NCBI GenBank assembly: GCA_947462535.1
Contig: CANHPN010000012.1
Span: 1 to 47,099, forward strand
DNA length: 47,099 nt
From: Akkermansiaceae bacterium
GTDB taxonomy: Bacteria > Verrucomicrobiota > Verrucomicrobiia > Verrucomicrobiales > Akkermansiaceae
Direction: 5' to 3'
Below are positions 15,416 through 17,762 of this stretch, piece by piece. The position numbers and the translations under genes are program-made. The notes under the pieces were generated by a model. The model was not told where the DNA came from, made no database searches, and saw only the letters and a program-made list of their open reading frames with translations. Numbering within the stretch: position 1 is the first letter of the stretch; the number at the start of each line of letters is the position of its first letter.

Positions 15416-16261
15416 ATGCCCCTGAAAACTTTCAAGCCAATCACACCCTCCGCTCGCTACAAGAATCTCCCGTCCTTCGACGAGATTACCAAGAGCAAGC
15501 CTGAGAAGAGCCTTCTCACGCCTCTCAAGCGCAGCGGCGGCCGTAACAACACCGGCCGCATCACCACCCGTCACATCGGCGGTGGCCACAAGCGCCACTA
15601 CCGTCTCATCGACTTCAAGCGCGGCAAGCACGATGCCCCGGCAACCGTCGTCGGCATCGAATACGATCCGAACCGCACCTGCCGCATCGCCCTCATCCAG
15701 TATGAAGACGGCCAGAAGTCCTACATCCTCGCCCCGCTCGGCCTGGAAGTCGGAACCACCGTCGTCGCCGGCCAGAACGTCGCTCCGAAAACGGGCAACG
15801 CCATGCCACTCAGCGCCGTGCCGCTCGGGACATCGATCCACAACATTGAGCTCATCCCGGGCAACGGTGGCAAAGTCGCCCGCGCCGCCGGCCAGCTCGC
15901 CGTGCTCTCTAACCGCGATGGCGGCTGGGCACTGGTGAAAATGCCTTCCGGTGAAATCCGCCGCTTCAACGACCGCTGCTTCTGCACGATCGGCCAAGTC
16001 GGAAATCGCGACCACATGAACGAAACCTCGGGCAAGGCCGGCCGCACCCGCTGGCAGGGCGTTCGCCCGACCGTCCGCGGTATGACGATGAACCCCGTTG
16101 ACCACCCGAACGGTGGTGGCGAAGGCAAGTCGAAGTCCGGTGGTGGTCGCCAGCACCTTACCAGCCCATGGGGCCACGCGAAGGGTCAGAAGACTCGCAA
16201 CAAGCGCAAGACCACCAGCGTCTTCATCGTCGAGTCCCGCCACAAAGCGAAGAAGAAGTAA
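15416..16261 (+). CDS. rplB: 50S ribosomal protein L2
   Basis: L2 is needed for subunit joining and peptidyl transferase activity. Length is 281 residues. It has KSGGRNN-like [32 protein letters not shown], the C-terminal [20 protein letters not shown] containing the conserved His, and [14 protein letters not shown]. The standard neighbours rplW and rpsS flank it. Confidence 0.98.
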
Positions 16262-16290: not shown

Positions 16291-16563
16291 ATGCCACGCT
16301 CACTTAAAAAAGGCCCTTACGTCGATCAAAAGCTTCTCGCGAAGATCGACGCCGTCGCCGAAGCTGGATCCGACCGCAAGCCCATCAAGACATGGAGCCG
16401 CAAGTCGATGATCACCCCGGATTTCGTCAGCCACAACTTCGCCGTCCACAACGGCAAGACCTTCGTTCCCGTTTACGTGACCGAAAACATGGTTGGCCAC
16501 AAACTCGGCGAATTCTCCCCGACGCGGATCTTCAAGACCCACGGCGGCATCGGTAAGAAATAA
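16291..16563 (+). CDS. rpsS: 30S ribosomal protein S19
   Basis: S19 forms the 30S head with S13 and contacts the A-site finger. The 90-residue protein begins [16 protein letters not shown] and has [39 protein letters not shown] and KLGEFSPTR, all family blocks. Normally rplV follows at once. Here an unrelated exported protein gene begins 22 bases after the stop. Confidence 0.98.
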
Positions 16564-16584: not shown

Positions 16585-17316
16585 ATGTTCATGCGTTCTA
16601 CCTTCCATCTCTCAGCATTTGCCGCCGCCCTCGGGTCGCTGGCCGTTGCCGGGGTGTGTGCGGGCCAAGCGCCTAACTCTGGGGAGCTTCAGGAAATCAT
16701 CGTCGATCTCCAGGAGCAGAACCGCTCCCTTCAGCGCAGCCTTGCCGAGGCCAATAGCGGCGAGAAGCAAGCGTCCCGCCAATTGGCCCAGGTCCGCGAG
16801 CGTCTCGAAGCACTCGGCAAGAACCTGCTCGACGGGGGAGACGACCGTCTCGTCCAGGCCGCCGCAGACTTGCAACTCGCAAGCGAGCGCACCACCAACC
16901 TTGAAAACTCCGTCACGCGTCTTTCCGCCGCCGTCACTGATTACCTCCGCCTCGCGGTGGTATCCGACCCGGATGCGAGACTTCGTGTGGAAACTTCACT
17001 AAGAGAGCTTGACGCTGTCCTCGGACTGCGCCAGAAGCCCCGCCCCGATATTCGGACCGGCTCATTGCAGCAGGCCCGGATTGTCAGTCTCGATCAAGAA
17101 AGCGGCATGATGGTTTTGAATCTTGGCGAAAGCCAAGGCGCTAAAATCGGCATGACCTTTCGCCTCACCCGCGGGCAACAGCCCTACGGTAACGCCATTC
17201 TCGCTGACGTCCGCAAGGGCGTCAGTGGTGCCTTTGTCGAATACCTCGACAATGTCGCCGAATCCCCACGCCCCGGCGATCTCGCCGTTCTCGAAACACA
17301 AGCATCCGCGCAGTAA
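16585..17316 (+). CDS. Unknown exported coiled-coil protein inside the S10 operon
   Basis: The 243-residue protein is not a ribosomal protein. Residues 1-27 form a signal peptide with a hydrophobic stretch from about residue 10 (LSAFAAALGSLAVAG). The only Cys is at a poor lipobox position. Residues about 33-100 are heptad-like coiled coil (LQEIIVDLQEQNRSLQRSLA, then QLAQVRERLEAL). Residues about 160-238 form a beta-rich domain, ARIVSLDQESGMMVLNLGES followed by QGAKIGMTFRL and DVRKGVSGAFVEYL, resembling FlgT C-terminal-like small beta-barrels by pattern. It starts 22 bases after rpsS and ends 20 bases before rplV, so it should be cotranscribed. ATG 16585 or ATG 16591 can be the start. The role is probably periplasmic and is not known. 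Confidence 0.88.
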   Translation: MFMRSTFHLSAFAAALGSLAVAGVCAGQAPNSGELQEIIVDLQEQNRSLQRSLAEANSGEKQASRQLAQVRERLEALGKNLLDGGDDRLVQAAADLQLASERTTNLENSVTRLSAAVTDYLRLAVVSDPDARLRVETSLRELDAVLGLRQKPRPDIRTGSLQQARIVSLDQESGMMVLNLGESQGAKIGMTFRLTRGQQPYGNAILADVRKGVSGAFVEYLDNVAESPRPGDLAVLETQASAQ

Positions 17317-17336: not shown

Positions 17337-17762
17337 ATGGAAGTCAAAAGCACCACTAAATTCGTTCGCCTCTCGCCTAAAAAGGCGCGGGACGTCGCCC
17401 GCGAAATTCAAGGTCTCGCCGTATCGAGCGCCCTTGATATTCTGACCTTCACTCCCAAGAAAGCCGCACAGCTGATTGGCAAGACGCTCAAGACCGCCAT
17501 CGCGGACGCCGAAAACAATTTCTCGCTCGATGCCTCGACGCTCGTGATCAAGGAAGCCGTCATCGGCGCCGGTCCGACGCTCCGCCGCTTCAAGCCGCGC
17601 GCCAAGGGTTCCGCCGGTCCGATCCTCAAGCGCACCAGCCATATTTCCATCACTCTCGTCGGCTCCGCTCCCGAGAAGAAAAAGAAGGCCGCCCGCAAGG
17701 CCGCTGCCAAAAAAACCGAAGAAGCTCCCGCCGCTGCCGCAGCTGCTGAAGAACAAGCCTGA
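17337..17762 (+). CDS. rplV: 50S ribosomal protein L22 with Lys/Ala-rich tail
   Basis: L22 lines the exit tunnel with L4. The core (about 110 residues) has TTKFVRLSPKKARDVAREIQG, the loop with GPTLRRFKPRAKGSAGPILKR and the end HISITLVG. The beta-hairpin motif is intact. The total of 141 residues includes a C-terminal tail of about 27 residues made of Lys, Ala and Glu (KKKKAARKAAAKK, then EEAPAAAAAAEEQA), longer than in E. coli. Confidence 0.97.
   Translation: MEVKSTTKFVRLSPKKARDVAREIQGLAVSSALDILTFTPKKAAQLIGKTLKTAIADAENNFSLDASTLVIKEAVIGAGPTLRRFKPRAKGSAGPILKRTSHISITLVGSAPEKKKKAARKAAAKKTEEAPAAAAAAEEQA

Follow-up and report, generated by a model that had tools for sequence, protein, structure and literature searches.

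The S10 operon is among the most conserved strings of genes in bacteria, and the proteins most similar to the one described here belong to the cell envelope. TsaP and MreC are periplasmic ring or scaffold proteins. TsaP has a LysM domain and associates physically with a secretin, and the order of parts in MreC is a membrane segment, a coil, and a beta barrel. FlgT, likewise periplasmic, is a protein of the flagellar H ring in Vibrio, according to the accessible part of the source (PMC7693769).

In the window (the whole 47,099-nucleotide stretch of DNA that was analyzed), the ORF list places an open reading frame of 243 codons, at positions 16,585–17,316 of the + strand, between rpsS and rplV. 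This gene is referred to below as X, as is its product. X is like the C-terminal domain of FlgT (PF16538, 3w1e) in its predicted small beta barrel within what is predicted to be a periplasmic protein, but differs in carrying a coiled coil before the barrel, in being encoded in a ribosomal operon, and in that the window protein has no FlgT_C match. TsaP (a LysM domain protein, PDB 3jc8) is the best PDB sequence match of the X beta-domain profile; however, no LysM domain was found in X, and X and secretins can occur apart. With MreC (PF04085), X shares a membrane or signal segment, a coil, a beta barrel, and a weak profile similarity, yet the genome possesses a separate MreC, and X is present where MreC is absent.

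The preliminary description of this DNA regarded the gene as an undescribed unit, and the open literature, a scope that leaves subscription papers and preprints outside, indeed yielded no description of X, its insertion, or its Akkermansia copy. The PVC signature protein is a different and short protein of ~53 to over 80 aa, as given in the available portion of PMC3444138. As far as could be seen, the beta-domain type is known, while the X family and its place in the operon are undescribed.

Gene X and Its Surroundings

The ribosomal cluster of the window presumably encodes S12, S7, EF-G, S10, L3, L4, L23, L2, S19, X, L22, and S3, and then continues with what we take to be L16, L29, S17, L14, L24, L5, and S8, on to SecY. 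These names, including rpsS, are our assignments from sequence and gene order, with the exception of L22, which was identified via PF00237. Coordinates are collected in Table 1.

The spacer between rpsS and X is 21 bases if translation starts at 16,585, or 27 bases if it starts at the ATG at 16,591, and the spacer between X and rplV is 20 bases. Of the two spacers given in the preliminary description (22 and 20 bases), the downstream value is correct and the upstream one is really 21. Because the homologues begin at the equivalent of the second in-frame ATG (16,591), and two codons before it the nearest relative (L032, at 97% identity) lacks an ATG in frame, 16,591 appears a likelier start than 16,585. 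The length of 243 residues first proposed for X thus holds as the number of codons in the ORF, but the protein itself is likelier to have 241.

A simple consensus scan, with other promoter types outside its scope, detected no promoter-like or terminator-like sites on the + strand in either junction of X, and the sole promoter-like site it returned (17,995) is at chance level. By eye, no AGGAGG-like Shine-Dalgarno sequence precedes rpsS, X, rplV, or rpsC between positions 16,250 and 17,800 of the window; in the same interval, CACTCCTCT is found upstream of both rpsS and X.

Table 1. Features of the X locus and of its product, in window coordinates.
Feature	Position	Strand	Basis
rpsS (taken to be ribosomal protein S19), upstream neighbour	16291..16563	+	ORF list; translation matches gene in relatives' loci
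Gene X, 241 aa, with predicted signal, coiled coil, and beta barrel	16591..17316	+	Start inferred from homologues
Putative Sec-type signal peptide, perhaps cleaved after VCA (residue 24)	16591..16662	+	Sequence reading and hydrophobicity screen
Long helix (residues 30-143), probably a coiled coil	16678..17019	+	AlphaFold2, block-mean pLDDT 63-89
C-terminal small beta barrel, FlgT_C-like, constant part of X family	17059..17301	+	AlphaFold2, alignment, fold matches
rplV (ribosomal protein L22), downstream neighbour	17337..17762	+	PF00237 above cut-off

Architecture of the X Protein

The signal peptide was called by eye and with a simple hydrophobicity screen. When the screen was applied to 107 X proteins (L193, L197, L199, and L202 being excluded), 93 passed its strict rule, and judged from sequence almost every screened protein has a signal-like N-terminus. 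Among the 14 failures, seven are hydrophobic at the N-terminus but carry no net positive charge there, and four are short forms for which the screen settled on a segment further along. The start of L067 is too early, and a clear signal is lacking in L192 and in L201, the latter at a contig start. In the excluded L199, no clear signal was seen by eye.

In AlphaFold2 models of full-length X, only the long helix is reliable; the beta domain is poor (pTM 0.24), since the alignment comprised the window sequence and related loci only. Modelled alone, the beta domain forms six strands, with a pLDDT of 77 and a pTM of 0.68 in the best of five models; the other four have pLDDT values of 70, 55, 44, and 39. 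The three parts named in the preliminary description, a signal peptide, a coiled coil, and a C-terminal beta domain, are therefore all recovered as predictions, the last as a six-strand barrel through the structure prediction that was proposed there as a check.

No family in Pfam or NCBIfam matches the window protein above cut-off. The helix region gives weak matches to coiled-coil families in Pfam, all under cut-off, and assignment to a phage scaffold or to PspA was rejected as the weak Pfam matches concerned are below cut-off and lie within the coil. FlgT_C (PF16538) is not listed for the full-length window protein at E ≤ 10, and its beta domain retrieves no family at E ≤ 1. Eleven of the 32 beta domains compared across the family do give a weak FlgT_C match (best E 8.5e-5), the window protein not being among them. 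The top fold match of the beta domain in the PDB is a chain from a flagellar LPHT-ring entry (8z5n; Z 10.4 over 75 residues, rmsd 2.2), and the N-terminal barrels of F1-ATPase follow with Z 9.8, less than 1 below. Such near-tied values mean that the match names a fold and not a family. Foldseek returned no match for the beta domain at E ≤ 0.001, and the FlgT structure 3w1e ranked 20th with E 0.029. Comparison of the beta-domain profile with PDB sequences retrieved TsaP (E 0.0043), MreC (0.18), and ribosomal protein S1 (7.1), and no others.

Conservation among Close Relatives

Counting the source genome itself, 56 of 59 relatives have a match to X, as do all 42 genomes of good quality; the three misses (G002, G019, and G026) are assemblies that have no L22 match either. 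The gene lies between rpsS and rplV in 55 of the 56 loci, and in the remaining one (L067), at the start of a contig, the sequence shows the rplV side alone. For five loci (L064, L069, L073, L074, and L075), plain tblastn missed X although the search of the relatives' genomes had matched it, and the ORF was set by position and alignment. The order S19-X-L22 is found in 22/22 named contigs, which are titled Akkermansia, Akkermansiaceae, Prosthecobacter, Luteolibacter, Verrucomicrobiaceae, or Verrucomicrobia MAGs.

The median pairwise dN/dS of X is 0.17 (Nei-Gojobori, 23 genus-level sequences), based for the whole protein on 223 of 253 pairs after those with dS ≤ 0.05 or pS ≥ 0.7 were dropped. 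By part, it is 0.41 for the signal, 0.17 for the coil, and 0.14 for the beta domain. X changes more quickly than S19, L22, and S3 (mean p-distance 0.58 vs 0.20–0.36). The preliminary description named a gene unique to one genome and unexpressed, or a dN/dS near 1, as outcomes that would count against it; what was found is a widespread gene with the low median given above. A spurious or overlapping ORF is ruled out by the homologues, the dN/dS, and the position.

Distribution in the Class and Phylum

Of 188 class genomes, 145 have a match to the X profile and 181 have one to L22. As the 145 include paralogues elsewhere in the genome, only X beside L22 was counted; of the 181 genomes matching rplV, this covers the 150 for which the place of L22 was listed. 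By profile, X is directly upstream of L22 in 104 of these 150. Reading the junctions of the remaining 46 revealed four short-form copies, 41 without X, and one contig that ends too early (G194, which is left outside the classification into long, short, and none). The gene thus occurs beside rplV in 108 of the 150 class genomes listed, 91 with a long and 17 with a short form, and in 31 of 43 families among the genomes with a listed rplV. The adjacency count omitted weak matches away from rplV (G081, G108, G121, G126, G131, G137, and G154) and second X matches of other genomes, and adjacency is unaffected by this. Since X is absent from 41 of the 150, neither the protein nor any coupling that it provides is indispensable.

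Long forms consist of a signal, a coil, and a beta domain. Short forms, of ~110–130 aa, keep the signal and the beta domain, lack the coil, and occur in families f13, f17, f39, f44, f47, and f50. Fourteen of the 17 were read directly, and three (G091, G160, and G192) were assigned from the match range and the length of the open frame. Conservation of the short form despite loss of the coil suggests that a function has been kept.

The 41 X-negative junctions comprise 39 plain gaps of 14–160 bases and two larger gaps of 325 and 564 bases, neither of which contains a convincing X. In family f19, S19 and L22 are separated in two 0.9-Mb genomes without X (G075 and G084; L092 and L094) by 160 and 325 bases, which are perhaps remnants, and a 2.5-Mb genome of the same genus (G151) retains the gene. 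The 564-base gap, in L096 (G117), has no convincing X ORF and is possibly a decayed copy.

Outside the class, X adjoins L22 by profile in 39 of 99 phylum genomes listed, and reading 40 of the other 60 junctions added four more, for a total of at least 43. A search of Verrucomicrobiota for conservation of place, as the preliminary description recommended, accordingly shows X at rplV in 108 of the 150 class genomes listed and in a minimum of 43 of the 99 listed from elsewhere in the phylum. In profile-profile comparisons, the class family matches two distant groups with a probability of 99.5 (E 3.9e-22 and 1.8e-22), and in the second of these the C-terminal half of X alone aligns.

The upstream neighbour is less constant than the downstream one in these distant loci. 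For example, S19-X-L22 is intact in nine of 20 X-positive loci fetched from outside the class, whereas no rpsS was detected within ~2 kb or less upstream of X in the other 11 (L185, L187, L189, L190, L193, L195, L197, L198, L199, L201, and L202), nor in the four X loci found by reading (L155, L160, L170, and L172). In all of these, X still adjoins rplV, and rpsC lies downstream except in L201, whose stretch ends. The next long ORF upstream of X in L155 is on the opposite strand. In at least three of these loci (L193, L197, and L202), a non-ribosomal ORF on the same strand precedes X, so that X may be transcribed there with other genes. Because the upstream content differs between loci, X is not claimed to be the start of a transcript.

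Expression

Codon adaptation of X is 0.48, compared with a mean of 0.67 and a lowest value of 0.57 for the window cluster, EF-G included; the other ORFs of the window, not all of which are verified genes, average 0.55. In 21 of 24 loci compared (L037 having been skipped for too few genes), X ranks last in its cluster for codon adaptation. Being less codon-adapted than the cluster genes, X is expected to be translated less, and translation at the level of ribosomal proteins is contradicted by its codon usage. Judged from sequence features, X is probably part of the same transcript as the cluster, with less protein made.

In the accessible text of PMC11480725, the ribosomal cluster Amuc_0294-0308 of A. 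muciniphila is reported to be up as a complete cluster on GlcNAc versus mucin. The gene numbers given for this species in the available part of PMC7671984 are gene335 for L16 and gene344 for S10. From these numbers and the gene order in G157, we infer that the Akkermansia X falls inside Amuc_0294-0308.

Possible Functions of X

The reading tentatively favoured here, which we consider a real possibility somewhat short of an even chance, is that X is a periplasmic envelope scaffold whose gene took its place ahead of rplV early in the history of the phylum. The scaffold role is proposed on the basis of the architecture and weak domain similarity only. Under this model, the Sec signal would export X, the coiled coil of variable length would oligomerise it and span part of the periplasm, and the constant beta barrel would dock on an envelope machine or a wall-bound partner. 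The gene spacing, together with the absence of recognisable promoters or terminators, suggests that X lies within the S10 transcript, in which case its mRNA would rise and fall with ribosome production, and non-optimal codons may hold its translation below that of the ribosomal proteins. In favour of this reading are the shared position in the class and phylum, the profile links to the distant groups, the signs of vertical descent, the low dN/dS with its minimum in the beta domain, the short forms, the persistence of X beside rplV where rpsS is not upstream, the paralogous nature of the weak matches in nine genomes without a seen X at rplV, the lack of a plasmid match, and the Akkermansia cluster. 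Against it are the low codon adaptation, the 41 class genomes without X, the lack of a Foldseek match at E ≤ 0.001, the near tie with F1-ATPase barrels, and the loci in which a non-ribosomal ORF precedes X. The tie between envelope growth and ribosome synthesis suggested in the preliminary description is a conjecture at this stage. A more specific version, in which X is a phylum-specific envelope-assembly protein with its output set by the S10 transcript, the barrel doing the work and the coil acting as an adjustable spacer, absent from some lineages, is rather unlikely as it stands.

A second explanation, doubtful but to be taken seriously, is that the position is a frozen accident: an ordinary envelope gene landed once beside rplV in an ancestor and stayed since rearrangement of the operon is costly, the position providing transcription but no functional link between envelope and ribosome. 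The pattern of descent is in keeping with this. Pairwise distances between X proteins rise and fall with those of S19, L22, and S3 (Spearman 0.77, 53 loci; the pairs are not independent, and the p-value therefore carries no meaning), as vertical inheritance predicts. Low codon adaptation and loss in several families also agree with an accident of position, as does the existence of paralogues of the same build outside ribosomal operons (L076-L079 and L209-L220). These paralogues resemble X in an N-terminal hydrophobic segment, a coil, and a beta domain homologous to its own (hhalign probability 97.9), but unlike X they are encoded away from rplV; tandem pairs are seen in L076-L079, L217, and L218.

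Other observations weigh against an accident of position. Many X-negative class genomes have a weak X-profile match elsewhere, yet in all 12 loci of L209-L220 the ORF scores better with the tandem-paralogue profile than with the X profile, from 117 vs 33 bits in L209 to 45 vs 28 bits in L215, the least clear case. The 12 derive from three X-positive genomes (G060, G143, and G148) and nine without a seen X at rplV (G072, G081, G082, G108, G115, G121, G126, G128, and G137, the junctions of G108 and G128 being unread). For these nine genomes, the idea that X has moved elsewhere was rejected on these grounds, as their weak matches are paralogues. Against the accident, then, are the lack of a moved X in these nine, the association of X with rplV where rpsS is not upstream, and the retained function suggested by the short form. 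As for an orphan or mobile insertion, it was rejected in view of the wide distribution, of distances that track the neighbours, and of the lack of any plasmid match for X. A control blastn of rplV against E. coli gave no match.

A third explanation, which we regard as improbable, casts X as a collar- or pilotin-like accessory of a type IV pilus or type II secretin, as TsaP is, or of an outer-membrane ring, as FlgT is. The weak FlgT_C matches in part of the family, TsaP as the best PDB sequence match, and the LPHT-ring chain as the top fold match all point in this direction. So does the occurrence of secretins, which are missing from one of 108 X-positive and 10 of 41 X-negative class genomes. 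However, all ten of the secretin-less X-negative genomes belong to family f12, 31 of the 41 X-negative genomes do have secretins, G199 (98% complete) has X without one, and neither Pfam nor NCBIfam places a LysM domain in X at E ≤ 10. An obligatory secretin partner was rejected in view of this distribution. Within f12 (G065, G072, G081, and others), a secretin match is absent from 11 of 12 sampled members and X is absent from the junction in all 11 members read, an association within one lineage.

Two further proposals are very improbable. In the first, export of nascent X would tether the S10 transcript to the membrane (transertion), or the output of X would feed back on the operon. The signal-like N-terminus of almost all screened proteins, in a gene at a ribosomal operon, speaks for this, but conservation is strongest in the beta domain and weakest in the signal peptide, and X is missing from many relatives. 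In the second, X would be an MreC-like elongation factor in the rod complex, a reading prompted by the shared order of parts and weak MreC profile matches (2 of 32 beta domains, best 0.014 and below cut-off, PF04085 being unlisted for the window protein) but, going by the genomes compared, already largely refuted by distribution: the PF04085 match of this genome that is above cut-off is at G000:C83 and is not X, all 20 sampled genomes of genus g18, which is probably Akkermansia (e.g., G060, G077, and G157), have X and no MreC match, against 162 of 168 other class genomes with one, and X-negative G064, G065, and G073 have MreC. Replacement of MreC by X was likewise rejected in view of the genomic MreC elsewhere and of the joint distribution of the two.

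Significance

It is unexpected for the S10 operon to have kept, through much of a phylum, a gene for an exported-looking protein that is under purifying selection, and the presence of X beside rplV where its rpsS neighbour is gone adds to the surprise. Genetic tools exist within the phylum; the accessible part of PMC12283558 describes targeted mutagenesis and a saturated transposon library for Verrucomicrobium spinosum. X offers a natural case in which a coupling of envelope and ribosome synthesis through gene position could be put to a direct test. If the more specific version of the scaffold reading is true, the supply of an envelope scaffold would scale with growth rate through operon architecture alone.
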